58,419 nucleotides of DNA, taken from the NCBI GenBank assembly GCA_947384285.1, contig CANDGI010000017.1:1-58419 (forward strand), written 5' to 3'. Origin of the DNA: an uncultured Lachnospiraceae bacterium (lineage in GTDB: Bacteria; Bacillota; Clostridia; Lachnospirales; Lachnospiraceae). The number at the start of each line of letters is the position of its first letter. Within the stretch, counting starts at the first letter, position 1. The notes under the pieces were generated by a model. That model had not been told where the DNA came from. It saw only the letters and a program-made list of their open reading frames with translations, and searched no databases. Positions 43,097 to 56,931 of the stretch are shown here, in pieces. Made by a program: the position numbers and the translations under genes.

Positions 43097-44701
43097 TTAT
43101 TCCCTTGGGGTGTGATATCTTTTTGCGATTGCTTCTGCAATTTTCATCCCATCCATAGCGGCTGACATAATCCCTCCTGCATATCCTGCGCCTTCCCCAC
43201 AGGGATATACCCCTTTTTTGCTGCTTTCAAATCCTTCATCCCTGGCAATCCTTATGGGAGAGGATGTCCGGCTTTCTACCCCGGATAAGATTGTGTCTGC
43301 CTGGTCAAAACCAGGAATCTGCCTGGAGAACTGATGCATTCCCTGGCAGAAGGAATCCCTGATTGCGTTTGGAAACAATGCATGCAATGCCCCAAACCCA
43401 TGATGCCCCTTGACGGCAGAGGAAAACCCGCCGTAAGAGGATGAAACCCTGCCAGCTTCAAAATCCCCCAAAAGCTGCTGTGGGATATTACCATTTCCCA
43501 GTTGATATGCTTTTTCCTCCAGCCTGCGCTGGAATTCCATGCCGCCCAGGGGATGAGGCGTCCCAAAATCCTCCGGGGTTACCGTTACAATAATGGCGCT
43601 GTTGGCATTTTGCCCCTTCCGGCCGCTGTAGCTCATGCCATTGACGGCAATCCGTCCCTGCTGGGAGGAGGCGTTTACCACATAGCCGCCGGGGCACATG
43701 CAAAAGGAGTACACGCCTCTGCCGTTTTTCAGGTTTGCGGTTAATTTGTAGGAAGCTGCCGGGAGTTTTTCAGCCATTTCTGCCCCATACTGGTTTTCAT
43801 TGATGAACCTCTGGGGATGCTCTGCCCGAAGCCCCACGGCAAAAGATTTTGCTTCCATATGAAATCCAGCATGGTACAGCATTTCAAAGGTATCCCTGGC
43901 ACTGTGCCCAATAGCAAGAATGGCCAAATCCGTCTGGATATACTGAGACAATCCATGTTTCATGCAATGCAAGCCTGCCAGCTTTCCCTGTGTAAATTCC
44001 ATCCCCGTCACACAAGTCTCAAACAGGAAGGTTCCACCCCAGTCTTCGATTTGCCGACGCATATCAGCAACCACCTTCCGAAGGATATCTGTCCCGATAT
44101 GGGGTTTGCTCTGGTATCCGATTTCCTCGGGAGCGCCATGGCGGATAAAAATATCCAACACCGCCTGGTTCCTCCCCTTCACATCCTTTACCAACGTATT
44201 TAGTTTTCCATCCGAGAATGCGCCTGCGCCGCCCTCCCCGAACTGTACATTGGATTCCGGCTGCAATTGGTTATCCTTCCAAAATTGCTCCACATCCCGG
44301 GTTCGCTCCTCTATCCTCCTGCCCCGTTCCAGGATAAGGGGACGGTAGCCGTGCCGGGCCAGCAGGTAAGCGCAAAACAAGCCTGCCGGCCCGCTGCCGA
44401 TAATCACAGGCGGACAGTTTAAGGCTTCTGTACCCTTGTCCGGAAACTGATAAAGGATATCCTTTGCCATGGAAATCTGAGGTTGCTTCCTCCTGCGGAG
44501 AATGGACGACTCATTTTCCACCTGGACATCCAGGGTATACACATAACTTATCTCATTTTTCTTCCGGGCATCTATCGACTGCTTCCGAATTTTATAATCT
44601 TGGATATTCTCGGTCTTTATGCCCAGAAGCTTTCCAATCTTTTTAAGGAGCTGCTCCTTCGTGTGGGAAACTGGAAGCTTTAACTGCTGTATTCTTATCA
44701 T
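43097..44701 (-). CDS. NAD(P)/FAD-dependent oxidoreductase (clostridial 'FAD-dependent dehydrogenase')
   Basis: 534-aa flavoprotein. N-terminal domain of about 90 residues (LPVSHTKEQLLKKIGKLLGI) of a type found before this dehydrogenase, then the Rossmann FAD motif VIIGSGPAGLFCAYLLARHGY (about 95-115), NVQFGEGGAGAFSDGKLNT and, near the C-terminus, YPCGEGAGYAGGIMSAAMDGMKIAEAI for the flavin. Start chosen at 44701 with AGAGG just upstream; an in-frame ATG at 44725 adds 8 residues, and further extension would enter the neighbouring gene. Substrate unknown. Separated by 67 bp from the next flavoprotein, to which it is not closely similar. Confidence 0.88.
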   Translation of the reverse strand: MIRIQQLKLPVSHTKEQLLKKIGKLLGIKTENIQDYKIRKQSIDARKKNEISYVYTLDVQVENESSILRRRKQPQISMAKDILYQFPDKGTEALNCPPVIIGSGPAGLFCAYLLARHGYRPLILERGRRIEERTRDVEQFWKDNQLQPESNVQFGEGGAGAFSDGKLNTLVKDVKGRNQAVLDIFIRHGAPEEIGYQSKPHIGTDILRKVVADMRRQIEDWGGTFLFETCVTGMEFTQGKLAGLHCMKHGLSQYIQTDLAILAIGHSARDTFEMLYHAGFHMEAKSFAVGLRAEHPQRFINENQYGAEMAEKLPAASYKLTANLKNGRGVYSFCMCPGGYVVNASSQQGRIAVNGMSYSGRKGQNANSAIIVTVTPEDFGTPHPLGGMEFQRRLEEKAYQLGNGNIPQQLLGDFEAGRVSSSYGGFSSAVKGHHGFGALHALFPNAIRDSFCQGMHQFSRQIPGFDQADTILSGVESRTSSPIRIARDEGFESSKKGVYPCGEGAGYAGGIMSAAMDGMKIAEAIAKRYHTPRE

Positions 44702-44768
44702 TTCTGCCTCTTTCTCTTCTTTCATAAACCTGTAACATTCAGGTAACCATTGAATAGTTACAATAACG

Positions 44769-46013
44769 CTAGAACATCGCATAAGCTGCAGCCGCCCTCC
44801 CAGCCACAGTGCCGCTCGTCCAAGCCCATTGCAGGTTGTAACCGCCGCACATGCCGTCAATATCCAACACCTCCCCGGAAAAAAAGAGGCCAGACACCAG
44901 CCCAGATTCCATAGTTTTGGGACAGACTTCATCTGTATCCACACCCCCAGCCGTTACCTGGGCGCCATCAAAACCCTTGGTTCCAACAATATCAACGCGA
45001 AGGCCCTGGATTTGAGCGGCCAGGCGGTTCCATTCCTTTTCCCTGCAAGCTTCCGCCATCTTATCTCTTATCATGCCGCTTTCCTTTAAAAGCAGATCAT
45101 TTAACTTGTCAGGCAAAAGCCCGATCAAGGCTTCCCTTGCTGTTTTTCCCTTTCCATAAATAAAAAACCGTTCCTTCAAAATCTCCCTCAACTGATACTT
45201 TGAAACATCCGGCATAAAATTCAGCGTCACAAACACCTGCTTTTTCTGTAAAAGCCCATAGGCGGCATAACGGCTGATTTGGAATACAGGAATTCCCGAT
45301 ACCCCAAAGGCTGTCAATTGGAGTTCCCCAAAATCCTCTGCAATTTTCTCATTTTCTATATAAAGTTCCACAACACCTTCTGCACGAATTCCTGCAACTT
45401 CTTTTAAAAATGACTGTTTTCCCTGCAATTGAACCAGTGCAGGCACAATATCTGTCAATTTATGTCCAAAACCTACAATATATGGAATTCCGCTTCCGTC
45501 GCTTCCTGTCTTTTTGGAAGCTTTTCCTCCCGTGGCAAGGATGCATGCCCTGCCTTGAAAGACGCCCTGCTTCGTATGAAAGAGAAAAATTCCCTGCTCT
45601 TTTTGGATGGAACGGATTCCGATTTCATACAAGATTTCTACGCCTATTCTCCGGCATTCCATCAACAGCGTCTCCCGGACAGAGGAAGCCTGTCCGCTTG
45701 CAGGATAATAATATCCGTCCCGCTTCACCTTGGCATAGATGCCAAGCTCCCGGAAAAACTGCAAGGTCTCTGCCAATCCAAACTGTTCCAAGGCAGGCAA
45801 GACAAAGGCAGGGTTCTTGCCTTTGTAATATGCAATGCCCTGCTTTTGATTGGTAAAATTACATTTTCCGTTTCCCGTCGCCAGGATTTTCTTCCCGGCC
45901 TTTTCCATATGCTCTAAAATCAGAACTTTCGCTCCTTGCCTTGCCGCCTGTATGCCAGCAGTAAGGCCAGATGCCCCGGCTCCTACAATAATCACGTCAA
46001 ATATCTGCTTCAT
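44769..46013 (-). CDS. BaiN/HI0933-family flavoprotein (aminoacetone oxidase family)
   Basis: 414-aa FAD-binding protein. FAD motif IIVGAGASGLTAGIQAARQG (8-27), GKKILATGNGKCNFTNQ (typical of HI0933/BaiN), CILATGGKASKKTGSDGSG and, at the C-terminus, LFFSGEVLDIDGMCGGYNLQWAWTSG. BaiN of Clostridium scindens acts in bile-acid 7-dehydroxylation, but the family is present in many bacteria and no other bai gene is near, so I give no symbol. Substrate not assigned. Confidence 0.9.
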   Translation of the reverse strand: MKQIFDVIIVGAGASGLTAGIQAARQGAKVLILEHMEKAGKKILATGNGKCNFTNQKQGIAYYKGKNPAFVLPALEQFGLAETLQFFRELGIYAKVKRDGYYYPASGQASSVRETLLMECRRIGVEILYEIGIRSIQKEQGIFLFHTKQGVFQGRACILATGGKASKKTGSDGSGIPYIVGFGHKLTDIVPALVQLQGKQSFLKEVAGIRAEGVVELYIENEKIAEDFGELQLTAFGVSGIPVFQISRYAAYGLLQKKQVFVTLNFMPDVSKYQLREILKERFFIYGKGKTAREALIGLLPDKLNDLLLKESGMIRDKMAEACREKEWNRLAAQIQGLRVDIVGTKGFDGAQVTAGGVDTDEVCPKTMESGLVSGLFFSGEVLDIDGMCGGYNLQWAWTSGTVAGRAAAAYAMF

Positions 46014-46117: not shown

Positions 46118-46525
46118 TTAACTTGTGTAATTTTCCAGAAAATTATAGAGCTGTTCTTCATTTTCAATTTGTTTTCCCTGGGAGATTTCCTCCTGCAAAT
46201 CTTCTGGAAGATTCCGAACCAGGATATCGGTGGCGGCAAACAAGGTTTCCCTGTCTGCATGGTAGACGGCAACATAACCATTTTCTTCCAGCAGGATATA
46301 CTCATAAGGATCTACCACTTTCAGGCTTTCTGCAAGTTTTTTTTCTGATTCTGCTGCTTCCTGCTGGGCAAGGAGATCTGCGTTCTGCTGCTGGAGCAGG
46401 ACAATGCGTTCCTCGTAGGTCCGCCAGTTCTTCTGGGTTCCTGCAAAAAAGCCGGTGCTAAGGCCAAATGCCGCGCTGACGATGGTTCCTAATAACAATA
46501 GACGAATACTACATTTCTTTTCCAT
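46118..46525 (-). CDS. Small membrane-anchored coiled-coil protein, BofC C-terminal-like
   Basis: 135 aa. Short cytoplasmic N-terminus, one membrane helix (about 8-28), coiled coil (about 35-68, ERIVLLQQQNADLLAQQEAAESEKKLAE), then a compact domain: YEYILLEENGYVAVYHAD, TDILVRNLPEDLQEEI and LYNFLENYTS. This last part resembles the BofC C-terminal domain (regulator of forespore signalling in Bacillus) and is common in clostridial proteins of this size. Similarity is judged by eye. Good ribosome site (AAGGAG). The 104-bp gap to the BaiN-like gene shows nothing clear. Confidence 0.7.
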   Translation of the reverse strand: MEKKCSIRLLLLGTIVSAAFGLSTGFFAGTQKNWRTYEERIVLLQQQNADLLAQQEAAESEKKLAESLKVVDPYEYILLEENGYVAVYHADRETLFAATDILVRNLPEDLQEEISQGKQIENEEQLYNFLENYTS

Positions 46526-46617
46526 GCCAAACTCCTTTTTGTGGTAGTATTTGCTATTTTTGTTATTTTATACAAGAAATACCCGGCATTTTTCTGTCTT
46601 TGAAGGCTCAACCATTT

Positions 46618-46763
46618 TTATATCCTCTGCCTAATCTTAAAAGCAATAAAAAATATGGCCTGCATTTTATTGGTTGTAGTGTAAAATCCAAAACCAAAAT
46701 CCAGAAATCGATTCTGGATTTTGGTTTTGGAACAGCCACATTACTTCCATGATACAATGTCAT
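46618..46763 (-). pseudogene. Frameshifted, truncated DUF3990-like gene
   Basis: Starts MTLYHGSNVAVPKPK (from 46763, with GGAGG six nt upstream), then in the +1 frame continues IQNRFLDFGFGFYTTTNKMQ and stops at 46618. The joined sequence matches the start of DUF3990 proteins (LYHGSNV...LDFG.GFYTTT), an ADP-ribosyltransferase-like family found in mobile and defence contexts. One missing A in a run near 46727 explains the shift, and the break lies in a palindrome. The full family is about 150 aa, so the rest is lost as well. Inactive unless frameshifting occurs. Confidence 0.75.
46687..46731. repeat. Perfect 20-bp inverted repeat inside the DUF3990 remnant
   Basis: Arms 46687-46706 and 46712-46731, core CCAAAACCAAAATCCAGAA, 5-nt centre ATCGA. 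It could fold as a strong hairpin in RNA and might also help end the upstream operon, but only a short T run follows on the - strand. Confidence 0.85.
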
Positions 46764-46791: not shown

Positions 46792-48027
46792 TCACCCAAT
46801 CCCGCACATCTTATCCACAGAATCCAGAATCTCTTTAATCTCCTGGCTGCCTCCCGGACGGTTCTTTATGAGCTTTTCGATTTCCTTCCTTGCGCCCCTG
46901 ATATCTGTGACCTGGCTCTCCATTCCGCTGCGTAGCTTCTTCCGGCGCACTAAAAGGTCATGCTTCACTTCAACCATCTCCTTTTTGTCCAGCAAAGCCT
47001 TCGCCTGATGAATCCATATTCTGGCGTCATAGAACCGGTACCGCTGAAGCTGGCGGATGAGTTTGTCATTGAAATACTCCAGATCATCGTTGGTGCGCTC
47101 ATATTTTTCCCGTTCCTTTACCGCTTCCAGATACTGGTCCCAGATGTAGCTCAATTCATATCCATTTTTCACATGGTATTTCTCACAGGCATAATCTACG
47201 GCATTGGTGACATTGACATATTTAAACTTTACCTTATTCAGCAGCACAATGGCCCGGTTGATATTGGCCTGCGCTTTTTTTAAGCCCATCCTGTCATTCT
47301 GCAGCCGCAGAGCCATAATTCCGCCCACTGCCCCTGCAATTAAGGTAGCTGCCACAAAAGGCATCATAATGTCAAATTTCATCACCATGCCAAGTATCAC
47401 AATCACGCCTACTGCCAGGACATATATGCCGGCGAAGCCGAAAAATAATCTGCGCAGGATTGTTTCTTCCTGTTCCAGGGAATCCTGGTAATAACGCCAC
47501 TCTTCCCGTTCCCCTTCCAGATACTGCATATCCCGCTTTACGGTAGTCTGGTAAGATTCATTGCTTTGCAGGCGCTTAATAATCTCCGGCATTTCATCCT
47601 CCAATTGCTCCATCTGGGCAAATTGAGCATCCGAAATTGTCTTTGACTTATTCAGGTATGCGTCCCTGGCCTCATTTAAATTCAGTACATTCTGAGCGGT
47701 TTCCTGGATTTTCTGCATTTCCGCTTCCGGCAGGTTTTCCAAGGTCTGGATATCGGTGAGATAGTCCGTCACTATTTTATACTCCCGTTTTGTCTCTTCC
47801 AGATTCCTGGCAGCAGCCATAATCTGCTCACAGTATTCCGTTGCAAGGCTTTTCCCCTGGCCTTGCCCCTGATTTGGTTTAGCCTGCTGCCCATTGGCCG
47901 CTTGTTTAGCTTTTTGCACCTGCTTAGCCTTATTCTCACGCCGCTTGGATCTTCGGTCAATTTCTTCGCCAAATTCTAATATCTCTTCTACATATTCCGG
48001 TTTTTTCTTTTTCTTGAATAATCCCAT
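46792..48027 (-). CDS. Coiled-coil protein with two central membrane segments, unknown function
   Basis: 411 aa. Very basic N-terminus (MGLFKKKKKPEYVEEIL), a Gln/Asn/Gly/Lys-rich stretch (about 35-60), long helices, two membrane segments (about 195-215 and 222-242: FAGIYVLAVGVIVILGMV, MMPFVAATLIAGAVGGIMAL) and a second long coiled-coil half. Both ends should be cytoplasmic. Not recognised beyond this. Last intact gene of the DUF5717-DUF5716-TPR operon, 2 nt after the TPR gene; it is the obvious candidate to tie that assembly to the membrane. Confidence 0.8.
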   Translation of the reverse strand: MGLFKKKKKPEYVEEILEFGEEIDRRSKRRENKAKQVQKAKQAANGQQAKPNQGQGQGKSLATEYCEQIMAAARNLEETKREYKIVTDYLTDIQTLENLPEAEMQKIQETAQNVLNLNEARDAYLNKSKTISDAQFAQMEQLEDEMPEIIKRLQSNESYQTTVKRDMQYLEGEREEWRYYQDSLEQEETILRRLFFGFAGIYVLAVGVIVILGMVMKFDIMMPFVAATLIAGAVGGIMALRLQNDRMGLKKAQANINRAIVLLNKVKFKYVNVTNAVDYACEKYHVKNGYELSYIWDQYLEAVKEREKYERTNDDLEYFNDKLIRQLQRYRFYDARIWIHQAKALLDKKEMVEVKHDLLVRRKKLRSGMESQVTDIRGARKEIEKLIKNRPGGSQEIKEILDSVDKMCGIG

Positions 48028-48029
48028 TT

Positions 48030-48779
48030 TTACTCACTTTTCCTATATCCTGTCCTTAAATTTTGCAGCGTAGTTTCTATCAGCTTTTCATAACCGCTGC
48101 GATTGGCCTGTTTTAATTCTGCAAGCTCCCGCCGGGTTGCAATCAGCCCGTCCGGCGCTGTATGGAATCTCTGTCCATCCTTGCTGGCAAGAGCCAAAAG
48201 ATAAGAATTCTTGCTCTCTTCGTTCTGCCCGATATCATAAGCTTTTTCATAGCATTCCGCTGCCTGTTCAAACAGCATCTGCCTGGCATATGCTGTTCCC
48301 ATATTATGCCAGATATTTCCTATGGTTTTTTCATCCTCTGCCTCCTGCTTCGCCCCGGCAATGGCTTTTTTGTATTCCATCACAGCATCTTTGTACTTTT
48401 CTGCTTTCAGAAGACGGTCTCCCCGCAGCTTTTCCCGGTCCAGCGGCTCCTTATTTTCCATATGCTTTGCGGTCTTTAAAGCATCCTCCAGCTCTTTGGA
48501 ATTGTAAAAGCCCCCAGCCTGCAAAATCTGTTCCATGCACCAGCAGCCGCTTTTTTCCTGGTCAATGCCCCGTCTCAGCCTTGCGCAAAGCTCTATCTGG
48601 CCAATTTCCTGCTCCAGCCACAGGCATAATTTCTCATTGAAAAAGCTTTCCTCCAGCGTCCCGGTATTTTCATACAAATAATAGCACAATTCTTCAAAGG
48701 AATACAAATCTACGCCTGCTTCCTCCAAAAAGAACGGGTGCTCTGCTATCTTTTCTTCACATAACCATATTTTACCCAT
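48030..48779 (-). CDS. TPR-like helical-repeat protein
   Basis: 249 aa, soluble. Helical throughout. The middle holds TPR-type helix pairs: RGDRLLKAEKYKDAVMEYKKAI and GNIWHNMGTAYARQMLFEQAAECYEKAYDIG (about 150-190), the second a near-consensus TPR. N-terminal part begins MGKIWLCEEKIAEHPFFLEEAGVDLYSFEELCYYLYEN, common to this family in Lachnospiraceae operons. Probably a protein-protein adaptor. 31 bp after the DUF5716 gene and 2 bp before the coiled-coil gene, so same operon. Function unknown. Confidence 0.82.
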   Translation of the reverse strand: MGKIWLCEEKIAEHPFFLEEAGVDLYSFEELCYYLYENTGTLEESFFNEKLCLWLEQEIGQIELCARLRRGIDQEKSGCWCMEQILQAGGFYNSKELEDALKTAKHMENKEPLDREKLRGDRLLKAEKYKDAVMEYKKAIAGAKQEAEDEKTIGNIWHNMGTAYARQMLFEQAAECYEKAYDIGQNEESKNSYLLALASKDGQRFHTAPDGLIATRRELAELKQANRSGYEKLIETTLQNLRTGYRKSE

Positions 48780-48810
48780 GGCCTGCTTCCTCTCTTTTGA
48801 CTGTTTCTCT

Positions 48811-50049
48811 TTACCCTATTTCATATTCCCATTCCTTGCCGCTGCCTGGGGAAAGCTGCCCCCATCCAATATCCTGCATATTCAAAAGAATCTGTCCCTC
48901 TTCCCCGGTATAAAGGGAAAGAGCCAGCCGGCAGCGCCCTGTCTCCTCTATGGGAAGCTCGGTAAGCTCCAGGCTCTCAATCCTGGCTTCCCGGCTTCCC
49001 GGCCTCTGCACCCAAAGCTCCAGCGCCGGCTCGCCTTCCAGAAGGATTCTAAGCCTCTTTCCAATCTGATGCTGGTTGCTTCCCGCCTCCAGCAAAGGAT
49101 AAAAATATGTTTTATCTCCTTTGGATACTTTCAGCAGCATATGCTCCTGCACCTTATATTCACAAAAATATACGGTTTCTGCCTGTTCCTGATGTACTGC
49201 AAGCATTCCAGCGTAACAGGCGCCTTTGGTATAGAGGTTCTTCCCCTGGAAAGCCCTTCTTCCCCGGCAGATGACCTGCAGGGATTCTTTCATCCAGCCC
49301 CCCTCAAATCCGCTTCCAATCAGATAGATGGCAGACACAATCCTGCCGGACATGGCATCCATTACCATGCGTGAGAAGGAAATATCCCATTCCCTTACAT
49401 TTTCCGGCAATTTTCCCAGATATATCTCTTCCACTTCCGCAATCTTGGGCTTGGTTTTTTTATTACAGGAAAGACGCTTCAGCCAGATTTCTTCTCCGCT
49501 GCAGGAAAACAAAAGAACATCATACTGCCACAATTCCTGTTCCTGGCACACGGCATATGCATAAAAACTCTCCCTGTGGTCCTGGATCATAAGCTGCTCC
49601 TCCCGGATTCCCAATTTCACAGACATATCCCGCAGCAGCGCCACCAGAGCGCTTGTCACTCCCTTTATGGAAAACACACATTTGGTAACTACCTCTATCC
49701 CTTTGGCGGGGAGGGCAATCCTTAAGACCTTCTTCAAGAACACAAGCAGCAAATCTTCTGCGCGGTACTCCCTGTCCAGGAAAACTTTTTCTCGTTTTAA
49801 GGCCTTGTCCAACAGGTAATCCACATAGACGCCCTCACCGGATTCTGCCATTCTGCTGGCTTCTTCCCCAAAACACCATTTTCCCGTGGATTTCCGCTTA
49901 CAGATTGCCGTGGGAATCTGATACAGTTCCGTTCCTGTCACCGTACTTATCGTTTCCGGCTCCGCCAGGTTCTGATGGTAACAGCTTACCTGCGTCCATC
50001 TGTTCCCCAGTTCAATTCCAATATACCATTCACCTGCTGTGGGCCTCAT
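48811..50049 (-). CDS. DUF5716-family actin/Hsp70-fold protein
   Basis: 412 aa, cytoplasmic. Phosphate-1 loop YIGIELGNRWTQVSCYH near the N-terminus (compare DnaK IGIDLGTTNS), and adenosine-site-like LIGSGFEGGW followed by KGACYAGML, as in actin/Hsp70 folds (about 260-305). The phosphate-2 position reads LLFSCSGEEIWLKRL instead of DLGGGT, so catalysis may be reduced or absent. The C-terminal 110 residues are beta-rich and would take the place of a substrate-binding domain. Start chosen at ATG 50049; a GTG at 50058 is possible. Member of the DUF5717 operon. DUF assignment is from recall of the family pairing in Lachnospiraceae. Confidence 0.8.
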   Translation of the reverse strand: MRPTAGEWYIGIELGNRWTQVSCYHQNLAEPETISTVTGTELYQIPTAICKRKSTGKWCFGEEASRMAESGEGVYVDYLLDKALKREKVFLDREYRAEDLLLVFLKKVLRIALPAKGIEVVTKCVFSIKGVTSALVALLRDMSVKLGIREEQLMIQDHRESFYAYAVCQEQELWQYDVLLFSCSGEEIWLKRLSCNKKTKPKIAEVEEIYLGKLPENVREWDISFSRMVMDAMSGRIVSAIYLIGSGFEGGWMKESLQVICRGRRAFQGKNLYTKGACYAGMLAVHQEQAETVYFCEYKVQEHMLLKVSKGDKTYFYPLLEAGSNQHQIGKRLRILLEGEPALELWVQRPGSREARIESLELTELPIEETGRCRLALSLYTGEEGQILLNMQDIGWGQLSPGSGKEWEYEIG

Positions 50050-50077
50050 CTCATTCACCTGCCAATCGTTTTATCAT

Positions 50078-53000
50078 TTACAGAAGATTAAATTCTTCTT
50101 TTACCATCCCATCCAGAATCCCATACGTTTCCATCCGTTCCATGAGGGTTTTTTCATCCTCCATCTGCCAGCTTACCATCATATCATTAATCAAATCATA
50201 GCGGCTGCCCTCCGCATGGGTGCAAAGCTCCTGGTTTTGTATCTGCCCGCTTTCTGTGACTGCCCATTCCCCATCTCTTTCTTCTTTGATATAATAAGGG
50301 ATCTTTTCTCCATAGAAAACCAGGAATTCTTTTACATAAATCCCCTCGTACACTTCCTGCAAATCCATTTCCAGATAGTCTGGGCTCCCGATGGGCAGGA
50401 AAATGATAACCACCTTCTTCCCAGGCTCTGTGCGGTATTCCAGAAATGTTTTATCGTGGTACAGGTATTTCCCAGCAAAGCTTTCCGGCAGGGTTTTATA
50501 AAATGCAAAGTATTTCCCTCTGGATACATACTCTTCCAATATGGTTTCCGCCCAATCCTGTTCTTCCTCTGCCAGATCCTTCCTGGAAGCGCACCATTTT
50601 AAAAATCCCAGCCTGCAGGGCGGGTTCAATTCCTGTTTTTCCTTCAGCATCCTGAAAATTTTCTGGAATACATAGTCTGAAACCACAGCGTCTTTGGTAA
50701 GAAGCTGATGGGACATCCAGGTAAGATACGAAAGAACAACAACCTCCCTGCCCAGGTTTTCCCCGTAGCTTTCAAAGATTTTTTCAATGCACGGAGCATA
50801 GTCCCCGGTATACAAAAACTGCACCAGGCATCGCTCCTCCAAGGCATACGTATCCAGCTCAAAGTCACATGCCGCCTGCCACAGCTTGGCCATTTCCTCC
50901 ATTTTCCCATAGAAATGCCGGCACATATAACTTAAAATACGTTCATTGTATTTGCCGCGCAAAAATACGCCCCGGCACAGCCTCAGCAAGAATTCATCCG
51001 ATTCCTCGTCCGTATCCATTTCTTCCATCCGGTGGCAGATTACATAAACCAGTTTTGGAGCCGAAATGCTCTCGCTGCCATAGGACAGCAGCAATTCATA
51101 GGCGCGCTTATAATGCCGCCTTGCCACAAGAAGCTCCATAATCCGCTCCCTTGCACGCTTTTTCATCCCGTCAAAGGATACGGACAGCAGAAATTCATCC
51201 AGCGCGTCCCCGGTATAATTGTAATAATAATAAGAAATAATCTGCGGGCGCAGCTCCTCCCGGTATGTTTCGCTGATTGCTTCGGATTCCATCAGCATTT
51301 GGAGGTAAGGCAGATCTTTTGCTTCATAAGTCTGCCAGATTTTTTTCCGGTCAAAATATTTCAAAAGGTAGGGCATCTTCTCCTTGGCCAAGGCAAGGCC
51401 CTTTTCTAAGAATTTTTCGCTGTCTAACAGCGGAACCACAGACAGCTCCTCTCCTGGCAGAAAACGGTTTCCTCTGGAATCCTCCAATAAAATCTGATAG
51501 AAGCTGCCATAGAGGCTGACAAACCCAACGCCGTGGTTCAATGGAACCGTCTGCTCCTTTTTCAAAGGATGCTGGCGCACCACAAGCCGCAGCGCACCGG
51601 AGTCCTTACAGGTAACCTTGTGGACAAAAAGTATTTTTGCCAGGTGCCCCATCAATTCCTCTGCAATCAAATCCGGCGTTAAGATTTCCCGGTACACAAC
51701 GGCACAATCCTCGTCGATCCGTTCAGCCTTAAGCTGTTTTATGACAAATTCTTCCATATTTTTCTGATAATGCTTCACATTATTTTTCCAGGAAGATTTA
51801 TGCTCCACCATAGAGCAATAAAGCTTGGCCTGGGAAGGATAGGGAAGGTTATTGTTGTACTGAAAATAGAGGATGACTGATTTCGGTATCCGTTCTAACT
51901 GCTTCTTCCCGGCAGACATCATCCAGGCTTCATAAATTCCCGCAATGCGGATTTTTTCTCTTACGCCCTTATGATACCATTTCCAGTAAGGTTCCCCATA
52001 ACAATTCCATTTCATGCAGTAGCTGCAAACTGCCTGCAGCATTTCCTTCTCAGGAAACACTTCATAACACTCACAAAGAATCCGGTACCAAATGGGATGA
52101 TATTCTGGTATTTCCGGCGCAAGCTGGCAGACCTGCTCCGCAATTCCACGGGTAACCGCCTGATGCTTGGCTGCCCAATACAATATTTTCCGGCAGAATT
52201 CATCTGGCTGGTATAATAAAAACGGCTCTTTTGCCAGAATCCGGTAGGCTTCCAGGTAAAGCACAGAGCTTCCGCCGGATGACCCAATCTGGCGGATAAT
52301 GATTTCCAGCTTCCTGCCCTTGCTGTAATTCATTTCTTCATCCAAAAACAAAAGAATCCACAAAAGCAGATTATTTTCCTGGTTTTTATGGAAAATCCTG
52401 CGTATTTTCCCAGTCAGTTTATTGACATAAACAGGCTCAGGCTCCCGGAGGGCGCATAGATACAGGTAATAGGCATACAGGGGCGATTCCTTATCCACCT
52501 TATGCTTCGGAAAAGCATCCAATGCCCATTCCCCTTCCTGCTGCTGCTTATTTACCAGAAAAACCTGTGCCTTTGCCAAAAGATACCAGAGATTATCCGG
52601 ATCCAGCGTTATCAGTTCTTCCAGCTTGCGGATGGAAAACTTTGCCCAGGCGCCTGTAACCATCTTCCGAAGGCCAAAACGGACGTAGGCATTCATCAAT
52701 TCCACCTGCTTTTTGTGAATCAATAAATCGTCCCGTTCTCTTTGTATTCCCTGGTATACACAGATATCCACCTGATGCGCCTGGAAGGGCGTCCTTAACG
52801 TAATCCTGCCAAAATTCTTCCCTGCATGCAAAAACTCCGGCAGTATCAAATATTCCGCCAATACATGGCCTCCCACAAATTCGTTGGAGGTAAGGGTGTT
52901 TTTTGCCAGGCCGATCCACCGGGCGTCACTGGTAATTTCAATGGAAATGTATCCCCATTCTTCTTTTTTTAATGTGATATGCTGCCTGTTTATTTCCGTA

Positions 53001-53614
53001 ATCCCCGAAAACTCTCTCTGTGTTTCCTCAACCCGAAAGGTTACCCGCTTTTTCTTCCGGGCGGCAATCAAAAATTCTTCCACCTGCGCCATAGTGCATG
53101 GCTTGCGCCCCAGCATCTGGTAAAGAAGCTGCTCCTCCGCCTCCTGGGGCTTAAAGATATGCACAAATTCCGGCTGCCCGAATATTTTTACGGCTTCTTC
53201 ATAAGAATTCCTTGCCAGATTGGCGAAGTCAAAGATGCTTTTTATTTTTCCCTGGGAACTATCAGGATAATTGCTGGAAACGGACACGGAAAAAGGAAGA
53301 TCATATTCCCCTTGGCTGCTGACAATATGGAAACTTCCTTTTTGCACATCTCCCTCTGCCAGCCCTTCACTGTGAAAGATAAATGCTTGTGTAATTTTAC
53401 TTCCTTGGAATTTTGAATTGGGACATTCCATCCTGGGGCTGGAGGAATAGACAATGCCATTAATTGGCATATCGCTCGCACTCTCCATGTGGAATTCACC
53501 AGTATAATCTGTCCCCTCCACTACTTCAAATTCCAATTGCTTTATGGAAAATTGAAGGATAAAGGAATCATTGCTGCACACTCCTGCTGCCAGTTCTTCT
53601 AATTTCTTCTGCAA
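50078..53614 (-). CDS. DUF5717-family giant helical-repeat protein (TTG start)
   Basis: 1178 aa, no signal peptide or membrane segment. N-terminal about 290 residues are beta-rich (QFSIKQLEFEVVEGTDYTGEF, then a second beta module near 195-285 with VEETQREFSG and GYISIEITSDARWIGLAKN), like stacked sandwich domains. The rest is a long alpha-solenoid of TPR-like pairs (LEELITLDPDNLWYLLAKAQ, YKRAYELLLSYGSESISAP), with a second beta insert near 700-760 (GVGFVSLYGSFYQILLEDSRGNRF). Start is TTG at 53614 with AGGTGA four nt upstream. First gene of the operon; the next gene starts 28 nt after the stop. Probably a large scaffold; function unknown. Confidence 0.82.
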   Translation of the reverse strand: MQKKLEELAAGVCSNDSFILQFSIKQLEFEVVEGTDYTGEFHMESASDMPINGIVYSSSPRMECPNSKFQGSKITQAFIFHSEGLAEGDVQKGSFHIVSSQGEYDLPFSVSVSSNYPDSSQGKIKSIFDFANLARNSYEEAVKIFGQPEFVHIFKPQEAEEQLLYQMLGRKPCTMAQVEEFLIAARKKKRVTFRVEETQREFSGITEINRQHITLKKEEWGYISIEITSDARWIGLAKNTLTSNEFVGGHVLAEYLILPEFLHAGKNFGRITLRTPFQAHQVDICVYQGIQRERDDLLIHKKQVELMNAYVRFGLRKMVTGAWAKFSIRKLEELITLDPDNLWYLLAKAQVFLVNKQQQEGEWALDAFPKHKVDKESPLYAYYLYLCALREPEPVYVNKLTGKIRRIFHKNQENNLLLWILLFLDEEMNYSKGRKLEIIIRQIGSSGGSSVLYLEAYRILAKEPFLLYQPDEFCRKILYWAAKHQAVTRGIAEQVCQLAPEIPEYHPIWYRILCECYEVFPEKEMLQAVCSYCMKWNCYGEPYWKWYHKGVREKIRIAGIYEAWMMSAGKKQLERIPKSVILYFQYNNNLPYPSQAKLYCSMVEHKSSWKNNVKHYQKNMEEFVIKQLKAERIDEDCAVVYREILTPDLIAEELMGHLAKILFVHKVTCKDSGALRLVVRQHPLKKEQTVPLNHGVGFVSLYGSFYQILLEDSRGNRFLPGEELSVVPLLDSEKFLEKGLALAKEKMPYLLKYFDRKKIWQTYEAKDLPYLQMLMESEAISETYREELRPQIISYYYYNYTGDALDEFLLSVSFDGMKKRARERIMELLVARRHYKRAYELLLSYGSESISAPKLVYVICHRMEEMDTDEESDEFLLRLCRGVFLRGKYNERILSYMCRHFYGKMEEMAKLWQAACDFELDTYALEERCLVQFLYTGDYAPCIEKIFESYGENLGREVVVLSYLTWMSHQLLTKDAVVSDYVFQKIFRMLKEKQELNPPCRLGFLKWCASRKDLAEEEQDWAETILEEYVSRGKYFAFYKTLPESFAGKYLYHDKTFLEYRTEPGKKVVIIFLPIGSPDYLEMDLQEVYEGIYVKEFLVFYGEKIPYYIKEERDGEWAVTESGQIQNQELCTHAEGSRYDLINDMMVSWQMEDEKTLMERMETYGILDGMVKEEFNLL

Positions 53615-53677: not shown

Positions 53678-53706
53678 ATTATAAACCATTCAAACATTTG
53701 TGTAAA
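53678..53706 (-). promoter_or_regulatory. Promoter of the DUF5717 operon
   Basis: On the - strand, -35 TTTACA (53701-53706), 17-bp spacer, -10 TATAAT (53678-53683); predicted start about 53671, giving a leader of about 57 nt. It overlaps the polymerase footprint of the + strand promoter. Confidence 0.65.
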
Positions 53707-53724
53707 TATTTTTGGAGGAAAATT

Positions 53725-54813
53725 ATGTTACAGCATAAAGACCATTTTCATGGAAGCGATTTGGAAAAAATTGAACAGATTTACGGAATCAAAAAAGAAG
53801 AGATTACAAGCTTCAGTGCCAATGTGAATCCTCTTGGCATCTCGCCGCTGCTTCGGGAAACATTGTCCAGTCATATTGACGCTATCTGCTCCTACCCGGA
53901 CAGGGAATATCTCTCCCTGCGCAGATGCATTGCAGATTATGTCCATACAGATTATGAAAATATCATTATGGGAAATGGCTCCACTGAATTGATTTCCCTT
54001 TTGATACAAATTGAACATCCAAGGAAAGCGTTGATTATCGGGCCTACCTATTCGGAATATGAACGGGAAATTGCATTGGGCGGCGGCGCGTGCCTTTATT
54101 ATCCCTTAAAAGAAGAACAAGATTTTGCACTGGATGCCGGGCGCTTTACGGCACAGCTGAATGAGAGCATTGACCTTCTTGTCATCTGCAACCCCAATAA
54201 CCCTACCTCCAGCGCCATCACAAGGAAAACCATGCGCGGCATCCTGGATGTGTGCAAACAAAACGATATTTTTGTCATGGTGGATGAAACTTATGTAGAA
54301 TTTGCCGACAATTATGAGGAAATCACCTCCGTCCCCCTAACTGCCTTTTATAATAACATCGTCATCCTCCGGGGAACCTCCAAGTTTTTTGCAGCCCCCG
54401 GGCTTCGGCTGGGGTATGCCATCACCGGAAACCGGGATTTTATCAAGTCCATCAATACCAGGAAAAATCCCTGGACCATCAATTCCCTGGCTGTCATTGC
54501 AGGAGAAATCATGTTCCGGGACACCGAATATATCCAAAAAACCCGGAAACTGATTTCAGAAGAGAGAGCCCGGATTTATAAGATTTTTTCAGAAGACAGC
54601 CGGTTTAAACCATATCCGCCCAGCGGAAATTTCATGCTGGTGCGTCTCTTGGCGGACGCTCTAACCTCGGATGAATTGTTTGACCGGGCAATCCGGGAAA
54701 AAATGATGATACGCGACTGCTCTACGTTTCCATTTTTAGATAACAAATATATCCGGTTCTGCTTCATGAGCCGGGAAATGAATGACCGTCTGATTTCATG
54801 CCTGATGCAATAA
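53725..54813 (+). CDS. Class II aminotransferase, threonine-phosphate decarboxylase/histidinol-phosphate aminotransferase-like
   Basis: 362-aa fold-type I PLP enzyme. N-terminus HGSDLEKIEQIYGI...FSANVNPLG resembles CobD (L-threonine-O-3-phosphate decarboxylase). PLP sites: NGSTELISLL, CNPNNPTSSAI, DETYVEFAD, and the Schiff-base lysine in RGTSKFFAAPGLRLGY; Arg for the carboxylate near the end (YIRFCFMSRE). No cobalamin or histidine genes adjoin it, so the substrate is open. Start at 53725 with GGAGG seven to eight nt upstream; the earlier in-frame start at 53698 has none. The stop codon lies in the loop of its terminator. Confidence 0.85.
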   Translation: MLQHKDHFHGSDLEKIEQIYGIKKEEITSFSANVNPLGISPLLRETLSSHIDAICSYPDREYLSLRRCIADYVHTDYENIIMGNGSTELISLLIQIEHPRKALIIGPTYSEYEREIALGGGACLYYPLKEEQDFALDAGRFTAQLNESIDLLVICNPNNPTSSAITRKTMRGILDVCKQNDIFVMVDETYVEFADNYEEITSVPLTAFYNNIVILRGTSKFFAAPGLRLGYAITGNRDFIKSINTRKNPWTINSLAVIAGEIMFRDTEYIQKTRKLISEERARIYKIFSEDSRFKPYPPSGNFMLVRLLADALTSDELFDRAIREKMMIRDCSTFPFLDNKYIRFCFMSREMNDRLISCLMQ

Positions 54814-54834: not shown

Positions 54835-56931
54835 TTATCCCGTATCTTGGTTCATCAACTGGAATAACCCATCCAGCAGATTTCCATAAACGCCGAAATC
54901 ACCCGGCAGCATCAGCTTCCCTTCCTTTTTCCCTTCCTGGAACACTGCTTCTACAAGATGCTGCATTTTTAATTTCGCTTTTCCAGCAGCCGCCTGGTAA
55001 CAGGCATTCAACGCAGCATTTTTAATCTGTGCCCCGGAAAGCTCAAACTGTGAAGCAAGATATGCAAAATCGATGCCATCCTTTGGCACATCCTCCAGCA
55101 TATATTCCCACAACTCTTTGCGCAGGGCTCTCCCTGGCATCTGAAATTGGATATGATAACGGAACCTTCGGAAAAAGGCATCGTCCATATGGGAAACAAG
55201 ATTTGTTGTCATCAGGACAATCCCTGTAAATTCTTCAATGCGCTGCAAAAGATAAGACACCTGGGCGTTCATGTGTCTCTCCTTGGCATCCCCTGTATCT
55301 GTCCGGTTGGAAAAGAGGGCATCCGCTTCATCAAACAGCAAAACCATATTGCTTTTTTCTGCCTGGTCAAATACCTCTTTCAATCTTTTTTCTGTTTCCC
55401 CGATATATTTGTCCATAATCTGTGATAAATCTACCTGGTAAATATCAAGCCCCAGGTGCGCTGCAACCACCTGCGCCGCCATTGTCTTCCCTGTTCCAGG
55501 CGGGCCGGAAAATAATGCGGAAACACATCTTCCATAAGAAATTTTTTTCCCTATCCCCCATTGGCTCAACACGGTTATCTGGTATTGCGCCTGATTGCAC
55601 AGCTCCAGCAGCAGCCTCTTAATATAGGGAGGAATCTTCAAATCTTCCCAGGTATATTTTCCTGGAACAAGCTTCATATTCTGGTAACGCCCATCATCCA
55701 AAATTTGGTAACAAGCACGGAAAATATCTTGTATGTTCCAGCTTTTCTCATATCCTTTCCCTGCAAGCTGCTCCACCACGCATTTTATCTGACCAGCTGT
55801 CAGGTTCATCCGGGCTGCCAGTGTTTCAACTGGAAAATGTGCAGAATCCTTAAGGTATTCTTTTGAAAAATAGTTCCAGAAAGCCTCCTGTTCTTCCAGT
55901 GTATCATTCGAAATGGAAACAGAACACCAACTGTCTTTTAATGTATCATCTGAAAGGGAAGCAGAACACCCGCCATCTTTTAGAAAAAAGGCAGGCTTTA
56001 CCTCTGGATATCCAGTCAGAAAGAGCGGCAGCTCCAAAAAGGCGTAGTCCTGATTGATTTTTTGAAATATGGTTTCCATGCATTGCACACCATCCTTGGA
56101 TAGGGTAATATCTGTGATGCAAAGGGAAAGCCTTCCCAGCAGGCATTGCCTGAGCACCCGCGCCCATACATCCTTTGTCATACACCCCTCTGCCACAAGC
56201 TTTTCATAGGGGACAAACAATAGGGAATATCCTGCGCTCCTGGCTGCCTGGCATACAAAAAATTTCCTGCCGCTGCCCCAAGCGCCGCTGACATATACGA
56301 CAGCCCTCTTTCCCCGTTTCTTAAGAAAAGCTGCTGCCTGTTCTTTTTCTTTTAGAAGGGTGATTGGTTTTCCAGGATCATTTTCGGCCTGCCATACGCT
56401 GCAATAACTTCTTAGTGTAAAATCCATATCATGTTCACCTAAAAGCCACGCTGCAAGATAAGGATCTGGACGAAAAGCAGCCTTTAGGAAGTTTTGTTCT
56501 TCCAAATCTGCAAGGAGCAGATTTTTTACAAGCACGAACGCTTCATAAGCGTCAGAAATGTAATCAATGCATTCTTCCTCTCTATGGGTGATAGCCCATG
56601 CTTCCTGGATCGTGGGGCCTTCCGCGGCAATCCCGAAGCATTGCTCCAGCAGCTGTAAGGTTCGGATATCCATGCATGTCAAAATATAAAGTTGAATTGC
56701 CGTCAGGCTCACAGGATTCCCCTTGAGCAAGCGATACAGCAAATCATAACGCTGTTCTGCAACGGGATTGTCCTGGAACAAATATTCCGGTGCTTCCTGG
56801 CATCCGACAAGATCTTGTTCCGTCATGCCGCTTATCAGAAGGCCTTGGTAATATTGAAATAATTTTTGATTTTCTTCAGCATCCATGTATACGGATAGTT
56901 TCATTGCCGCCAATGCCGCAAGTCTTTTCAT
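54835..56931 (-). CDS. Tandem AAA ATPase, first P-loop degenerate
   Basis: 698 aa, soluble. N-terminal helical region (1-about 200). First AAA module about 200-350: the P-loop position reads GAWGSGRKFF, with the essential Lys/Thr replaced, so it is probably inactive. A 42-bp in-frame tandem duplication lies at its end (CSASLSDDTL / CSVSISNDTL). Second module about 450-640 is canonical: Walker A GPPGTGKT, Walker B LLFDEADALF, sensor MTTN, Arg finger region DDAFFRRFRYH. Similar two-module ATPases occur alone and in contractile-injection-system clusters, but no such genes are near. AGGAG lies 11 nt before the start. Its relation to the DUF5717 operon is only by proximity. Confidence 0.85.
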   Translation of the reverse strand: MKRLAALAAMKLSVYMDAEENQKLFQYYQGLLISGMTEQDLVGCQEAPEYLFQDNPVAEQRYDLLYRLLKGNPVSLTAIQLYILTCMDIRTLQLLEQCFGIAAEGPTIQEAWAITHREEECIDYISDAYEAFVLVKNLLLADLEEQNFLKAAFRPDPYLAAWLLGEHDMDFTLRSYCSVWQAENDPGKPITLLKEKEQAAAFLKKRGKRAVVYVSGAWGSGRKFFVCQAARSAGYSLLFVPYEKLVAEGCMTKDVWARVLRQCLLGRLSLCITDITLSKDGVQCMETIFQKINQDYAFLELPLFLTGYPEVKPAFFLKDGGCSASLSDDTLKDSWCSVSISNDTLEEQEAFWNYFSKEYLKDSAHFPVETLAARMNLTAGQIKCVVEQLAGKGYEKSWNIQDIFRACYQILDDGRYQNMKLVPGKYTWEDLKIPPYIKRLLLELCNQAQYQITVLSQWGIGKKISYGRCVSALFSGPPGTGKTMAAQVVAAHLGLDIYQVDLSQIMDKYIGETEKRLKEVFDQAEKSNMVLLFDEADALFSNRTDTGDAKERHMNAQVSYLLQRIEEFTGIVLMTTNLVSHMDDAFFRRFRYHIQFQMPGRALRKELWEYMLEDVPKDGIDFAYLASQFELSGAQIKNAALNACYQAAAGKAKLKMQHLVEAVFQEGKKEGKLMLPGDFGVYGNLLDGLFQLMNQDTG

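Follow-up and report, generated by a model that had tools for sequence, protein, structure and literature searches.

The closest described counterparts of the locus reported here are the DnaK-DnaJ-GrpE chaperone machine, the eukaryotic ribosome-associated complex with its Hsp70 Ssz1, and the gene neighbourhoods of GAP1-N2. The locus is a four-gene operon in a 58,419-nucleotide stretch of DNA from an uncultured Lachnospiraceae bacterium (GenBank assembly GCA_947384285.1, contig CANDGI010000017.1; the whole of this stretch is called the window below), and it encodes members of the families DUF5717 and DUF5716, a TPR protein and a membrane protein. As far as its sequence can tell, DUF5716 almost certainly descends from a dead Hsp70 and has lost the ATPase, and we lean towards reading the operon as what remains, in reduced form, of a chaperone operon with several Hsp70s, in which DUF5716 would be a non-cycling hub on a scaffold. 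DUF5716 has Hsp70 ancestry in common with the DnaK system, and GrpE and active Hsp70s occur in related large operons, but DUF5716 lacks the catalytic residues, lobe IIB and the lid, and no DnaJ was found in the locus. With Ssz1 it shares the Hsp70 fold and the missing lid, the loss of hydrolysis being read from residues in the case of DUF5716. Ssz1 binds ATP and is tethered to the ribosome by a J-domain protein, whereas DUF5716 is without lobe IIB, which Ssz1 keeps, and would sit on another kind of scaffold. No J-domain partner was detected by Pfam among the four proteins of the window or six proteins of the operon L103 from another family; such a partner could be encoded elsewhere.

As described by Kaur et al. 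(2020, PMC7159879), GAP1-N2 neighbourhoods resemble the large operon in bringing together an Hsp70, GrpE, a lesser Hsp70 and a beta-sandwich/TPR protein. They centre on a GTPase, whereas Pfam found none among nine window proteins and the L103 operon proteins; the DUF5717 locus is near-universal in one family and in Lachnospiraceae no longer includes the active Hsp70s and GrpE. The Ig-like domains of DUF5717 best match the ASH/MSP/PapD type in a general structural search. The Pfam descriptions of DUF5717 (PF18984/PF18983) and DUF5716_C (PF18980), to which the window proteins belong by score, assign neither a function nor a tie to Hsp70; that tie comes from intermediates, identified here, with matches to DUF5716_C as well as HSP70. 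Among the literature matches listed (titles and abstract starts), none was on the topic of DUF5716, DUF5717 or the operon, the one paper listed for the two families having an unrelated theme. Two nameless Pfam families, present in nearly every sampled genus of a dominant gut family, would gain an origin: DUF5716 as an Hsp70 minus its engine and its GrpE lobe, DUF5717 as an inherited scaffold.

The Hsp70 fold attributed to DUF5716 in an earlier note, made from the letters of the window, stands. The structural model is DnaK-like (predicted local distance difference test, pLDDT, 93.7; predicted template modelling score, pTM, 0.91), and its residues 10-415 align with DnaK in the structural matches (Foldseek/VIA), the best of which include Ssz1; a chain of profile alignments (hhalign) also leads to Hsp70. 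An actin-like nucleotide-binding domain (NBD) is joined to a beta-type substrate-binding domain (SBD). The key ATPase residues of Hsp70 are T11, K70, E171, D194, T199 and D201 (E. coli numbering). Each of 63 DUF5716 sequences, that of the window included, keeps between 0 and 2 of these six, and all six are intact in 13 of 13 active operon Hsp70s. Lobe IIB closes the cleft of an Hsp70 and is one of the contacts of GrpE. In DUF5716, coverage over residues 181-260 of the bacterium's own DnaK is only 0-0.3, meaning that this lobe is not present. Because the ATPase residues and lobe IIB have both been lost, the earlier description of DUF5716 as a nucleotide-responsive subunit is contradicted. The SBD-alpha lid was not recognized either: coverage over own-DnaK residues 481-560 is 0-0.1, bar one block of 20 residues (0.55) where C-terminal ends are aligned, and the active Hsp70s of the large operon look like DUF5716 in this region. 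DUF5716 is Hsp70-derived but, judged by these features, does not qualify as a working Hsp70.

The locus is larger in other families of the order. DUF5717 is followed by Hsp70-1, a GrpE-coiled-coil fusion, a dead Hsp70, Hsp70-2 and Hsp70-VWA, and then, in some genomes, by TPR and membrane genes; the three other Hsp70s have intact ATPase residues, and one of them carries a VWA domain. Pfam confirmed HSP70, GrpE and VWA in the L103 operon, the dead Hsp70 of which scores 93.5 bits with DUF5716_C and 63.6 bits with HSP70. The profile match (hhalign) between DUF5716 and the dead Hsp70s of the large operons has an E value of 2e-54, and in a tree with active Hsp70s as outgroup DUF5716 is nested inside these dead Hsp70s, with that of genome G479 as its sister. 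With the complete set and the membrane protein as well, G479 marks a step between the two operon forms. Its Hsp70-VWA gene and TPR gene are each split into two open reading frames (ORFs; L099 1340-3384 and 205-1231; L129), which may be an assembly error or decay in progress. Of the 20 other-family genomes fetched, 16 show the whole series from DUF5717 to Hsp70-VWA, and two of the exceptions (G480 and G481) stop at a contig edge. DUF5717 is encoded by two adjacent ORFs in 13 of the 20, and in G563 its halves lie on two contigs. The TPR gene was found in nine of these genomes and the membrane protein in four (G479, G502, G569 and G541), a second stretch, mostly further downstream, having been fetched for 13 of the 20. 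The large Hsp70/GrpE/VWA operon of these neighbouring families offers a comparison that still has its moving parts.

None of 120 Lachnospiraceae loci, the window's among them, has Hsp70-1, Hsp70-2 or GrpE in the stretch examined, and a single locus gave a weak match to the VWA profile (22.9 bits, in a 331-aa ORF). In the window's genome (83% complete), a PF00012 search returned three matches: DnaK, the only full-length one, and partial matches in frames of 362 and 291 aa, which, like others of about 290-370 aa, we take to be MreB-like. The same search in 14 Lachnospiraceae genomes uncovered extra Hsp70s in five (three in G022, and others in G351, G070, G046 and G043). That these might be operon Hsp70s that have moved elsewhere was rejected: the six from G022, G351, G070 and G046 group with DnaK and not with the operon Hsp70s, the tree leaving out that of G043 (651 aa, 655 bits). 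The extra proteins L212-L217 (about 560-590 aa; three are from G022) make up a single clade beside DnaK, which is perhaps HscC-like.

In a sample of 130 Lachnospiraceae genomes, one per genus, DUF5717_N occurs in 127 and DUF5716_C in 126, and neither in any of 14 control genomes. Two genomes that are each more than 90% complete (G029 and G091) have neither DUF5717 nor DUF5716. DUF5717 was found in only 4 of 348 genomes sampled across the phylum, all Lachnospiraceae, and in 7 of 196 across the class, where the six matches above cut-off are again from Lachnospiraceae; across the order it was matched in 62 of 116 genomes (61 above cut-off), 51 of the 62 being from other families. A link with sporulation, raised in the earlier note, was rejected: Spo0A_C is present in 89 of the 130 genomes, and 39 of the 41 that lack it keep DUF5717.

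Gene order was compared in 119 Lachnospiraceae loci (40 one-per-genus and 79 named; L060 and L166 lie on contigs of equal length with an identical gene layout, so that at least one genome has probably been counted twice). DUF5716 directly follows DUF5717 in all 119, and the TPR gene comes next in all 116 where the contig continues, two of these being DUF5716-TPR fusions. The view of the locus as one conserved unit is borne out to this extent; co-occurrence of all four genes holds for the first three, the membrane-protein gene being variable and following in 89 of the 119 loci. Alignments A3 and A4 comprise 62 of 76 and 58 of 77 available named-locus sequences, respectively.

In the window itself the four ORFs adjoin one another on the minus strand, where the earlier note placed them (46792-53614). 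The gaps between DUF5717, DUF5716, the TPR gene and the membrane-protein gene are 19, 31 and 2 nt; the last two agree with the earlier note, whereas its first gap, 28 nt, fits a count from an ATG three codons into DUF5716 and becomes 19 nt from the GTG start. The DUF5717 protein scores 1024.6 bits with DUF5717_N and 332.9 bits with DUF5717 (Pfam gathering cut-offs 25 and 25), and the DUF5716 protein 280.2 bits with DUF5716_C (cut-off 34.7); NCBIfam returned no family at its cut-off for any of the four proteins. When the four genes were compared with those of three near relatives, the ratio of nonsynonymous to synonymous substitution rates (dN/dS) came to 0.03-0.16 in 11 of 12 cases and could not be computed in the other; synonymous sites are almost saturated (dS about 1-2.2). 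The four genes are thus under purifying selection. All six of the upstream regions aligned retain a TTTACA-17-TATAAT promoter, and this conservation, together with the low dN/dS, indicates that the gene set is more than a chance arrangement. Heat-shock control was considered and rejected: a scan of all loci for the CIRCE operator gave nine sites, of which even the closest lies over 2 kb upstream of a DUF5717 gene, and the window promoter is of the plain sigma-70 type.

The giant beta-plus-solenoid scaffold proposed in the earlier note for the first gene agrees with the AlphaFold2 model of DUF5717 (pLDDT 88.2; pTM 0.59) and its Foldseek/VIA matches. The model has two Ig-like domains of the MSP/ASH/PapD type (residues 17-113 and 189-289), an alpha-solenoid (293-662), a beta domain (664-728), a second alpha-solenoid (732-1050), a C-terminal beta domain (1055-1127) and a helical tail. 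Hydropathy detected no membrane helix in DUF5717, and its profile had no significant match among PDB sequences (best E 0.59).

The TPR-like adaptor also held up; its score with TPR_12 (28.5 bits) is just under the Pfam cut-off of 30.1. The two genes are fused in 5 of 126 genomes, giving the five longest DUF5716 ORFs (690-727 aa), which supports a contact between DUF5716 and the TPR protein. The fourth protein has no Pfam family above cut-off, and 19 of its members gave weak matches spread over various families (best E 3e-5, for one member). The membrane helices ascribed to it were confirmed as a hydrophobic stretch of hairpin length, which fits two helices in 19 of 19 relatives; the peaks are separate in 18, and L158 has one merged stretch of 56 residues. 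Its arms look like coiled coils, the only PDB profile matches being to keratin coiled coils. A membrane anchor can thus be retained, not as a fixed part of the set: the protein is matched in 59 of the 130 genomes, 57 of them strongly, the other two matches being weak (19.6 and 20.3 bits).

We picture the history and working of the operon as follows. The active Hsp70s and GrpE of the large operon would have been lost from the Lachnospiraceae loci, the dead Hsp70 staying and further losing lobe IIB. DUF5717 would be a cytoplasmic scaffold, and DUF5716, seated on it and joined to the TPR adaptor, a non-cycling, Hsp70-shaped hub that could hold client or partner proteins without an ATPase cycle of its own; the hairpin protein, where present, would tie this assembly to the membrane. 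That the operon products form one physical complex seems probable to us, and for a non-cycling hub near the membrane we see the chances as evenly balanced. Several observations weigh against this reading. The position of the DnaK peptide-pocket residue V436 is deleted in 63 of 63 DUF5716 sequences, which speaks against ordinary peptide holding of the Hsp70 type. The equivalent of G341 is left in 63 of 63 and that of D194 in 29 of 63, so that ATP binding without hydrolysis would be possible. The domain arrangement of DUF5717 is unsure because the pTM of its model is low, and the absence of the anchor from over half of the genera means that membrane attachment is not needed everywhere. Nor is the large operon uniform: G519 has no Hsp70-1 and GrpE at the locus, and G563 no Hsp70 beside either half of DUF5717.

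The role of a dead Hsp70 where the live ones are gone is the testable question to which this anonymous core operon gives rise. DUF5716 may act as a relay, taking up or positioning clients on the scaffold as yeast Ssz1 does and perhaps handing them to DnaK, by analogy with Ssz1 and Ssb, in replacement of the lost operon Hsp70s in trans. This option, which we regard as rather unlikely, draws on the place of Ssz1 among the best structural matches, on DnaK as the sole full-length Hsp70 of the window's genome, and on TPR proteins being common Hsp70 partners. Ssz1 itself has, according to PMC7083937, no lid, binds ATP without hydrolysing it and passes chains to Ssb. Against this stand the absence of a J domain from the four window proteins and the six L103 operon proteins scanned, and the altered canonical peptide pocket of DUF5716. 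In its widest form, which we consider unlikely, nearly all Lachnospiraceae would possess a core complex for chaperone relay or quality control, in some of them linked to the membrane, as a bacterial counterpart of the ribosome-associated complex: a dead, passive Hsp70 receiver without its exchange-factor lobe, on a giant Ig/solenoid scaffold, would feed the housekeeping DnaK, and the complex would have evolved by the stripping of three engines and GrpE from an older machine with several Hsp70s, which is still at work in relatives.

It is quite unlikely, in our view, that the Hsp70 fold survives solely as a structural element in a skeleton linked to the membrane, with no chaperone role. The parallel that would suggest such a scaffold, Hsp70A beside ASH-domain proteins in the solved ciliary central pair, is an analogy of common folds; the membrane anchor is often missing, and the relatives keep an ATP-driven Hsp70/GrpE set for which a passive skeleton would have no need.

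It is highly improbable that the four-gene form is ancestral and that active Hsp70s and GrpE were added beside it later on in the other families. The simple form is found at every Lachnospiraceae locus examined, but DUF5716 nests inside the large-operon dead Hsp70s, lacks the lobe IIB that these retain, and has as its tree sister a protein from a genome with the full set and the membrane protein. It is just as improbable that the locus serves conflict or defence, like the Hsp70/GrpE systems that accompany GAP1-N2 GTPases: the neighbourhoods described in PMC7159879 do contain Hsp70, GrpE, a further Hsp70 that has no peptide-binding domain, and FNIII proteins with a fused TPR or J domain, but Pfam found no GTPase among nine window proteins and the L103 operon proteins (the other loci having been viewed as gene layout), PADLOC matched none of the four window proteins, and the locus is near-universal in Lachnospiraceae and constrained, unlike patchy conflict systems. 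Two Hsp70s of a relative give weak matches to the PADLOC model PDC-M61B (27 and 39 bits), which may simply be due to their being Hsp70s.

Table 1. Features of the DUF5717-DUF5716 locus and its surroundings (window positions)
Feature	Position	Strand	Basis
CobD/HisC-like aminotransferase, divergent neighbour	53698..54813	+	Profile search; comparison of loci
Promoter, sigma-70-type, TTTACA-17-TATAAT	53678..53706	-	Motif scan; conserved in 6/6 upstream regions
DUF5717 scaffold protein (putative), 1178 aa, TTG start	50078..53614	-	Pfam; AlphaFold2; Foldseek/VIA; hydropathy
First Ig-like domain of DUF5717, residues 17-113	53276..53566	-	Model and structural matches
Second Ig-like domain of DUF5717, residues 189-289	52748..53050	-	Model and structural matches
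DUF5716, predicted dead Hsp70 (NBD without lobe IIB, SBD-beta-like domain; stops where the lid would begin), 415 aa, GTG start	48811..50058	-	hhalign; residues; model; Foldseek/VIA; tree
Approximate site of the missing Hsp70 lobe IIB in DUF5716, about residues 200-220	49399..49461	-	Alignment gap
TPR adaptor protein, 249 aa, N-terminal region conserved; five other genomes have a DUF5716-TPR fusion	48030..48779	-	Pfam (sub-threshold); comparison of loci
Membrane protein, 411 aa, hydrophobic hairpin at about residues 190-242 between long coiled-coil-looking arms	46792..48027	-	Hydropathy; profile searches
Terminator-like hairpin, 3' of the fourth gene	46694..46717	-	Consensus match only; such matches no commoner in the region than in shuffles

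The divergent aminotransferase gene is the neighbour of DUF5717 in 37 of the 71 named loci that have room for it, in 13 of 40 one-per-genus loci and in 8 of 20 loci from other families. Its recurrence in Lachnospiraceae and in the other families supports the orthology of the locus; we do not claim that it is part of the complex. Beyond it lies a gene for a 698-aa AAA protein (54835-56931, minus strand), the C-terminal AAA domain of which scores 119 bits on the model of the anti-phage ATPase IteA (cut-off 510). This protein was considered as the missing motor of the assembly and rejected, matches being found in only 7 of 60 relatives' loci, all weak (13-19 bits).

On the other side, directly 3' of the fourth gene, a stretch of 51 codons (46611-46763, minus strand) begins MTLYHGSNV..PK, a start that to us resembles DUF3990 proteins, and then enters an inverted repeat. 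It is perhaps a truncated gene remnant, and by eye it was not seen in the 130 nt 3' of the fourth gene in five near relatives. Next to it, a 135-aa protein (46118-46525, minus strand) has a sub-threshold match to the BofC C-terminal domain (16.6 versus 21 bits) and, by eye, an N-terminal hydrophobic stretch. Further on, two FAD-protein ORFs (43097-44944 and 44769-46013) overlap by 176 nt (44769-44944, minus strand), which suggests that the ORF at 43097-44944 probably starts further in.
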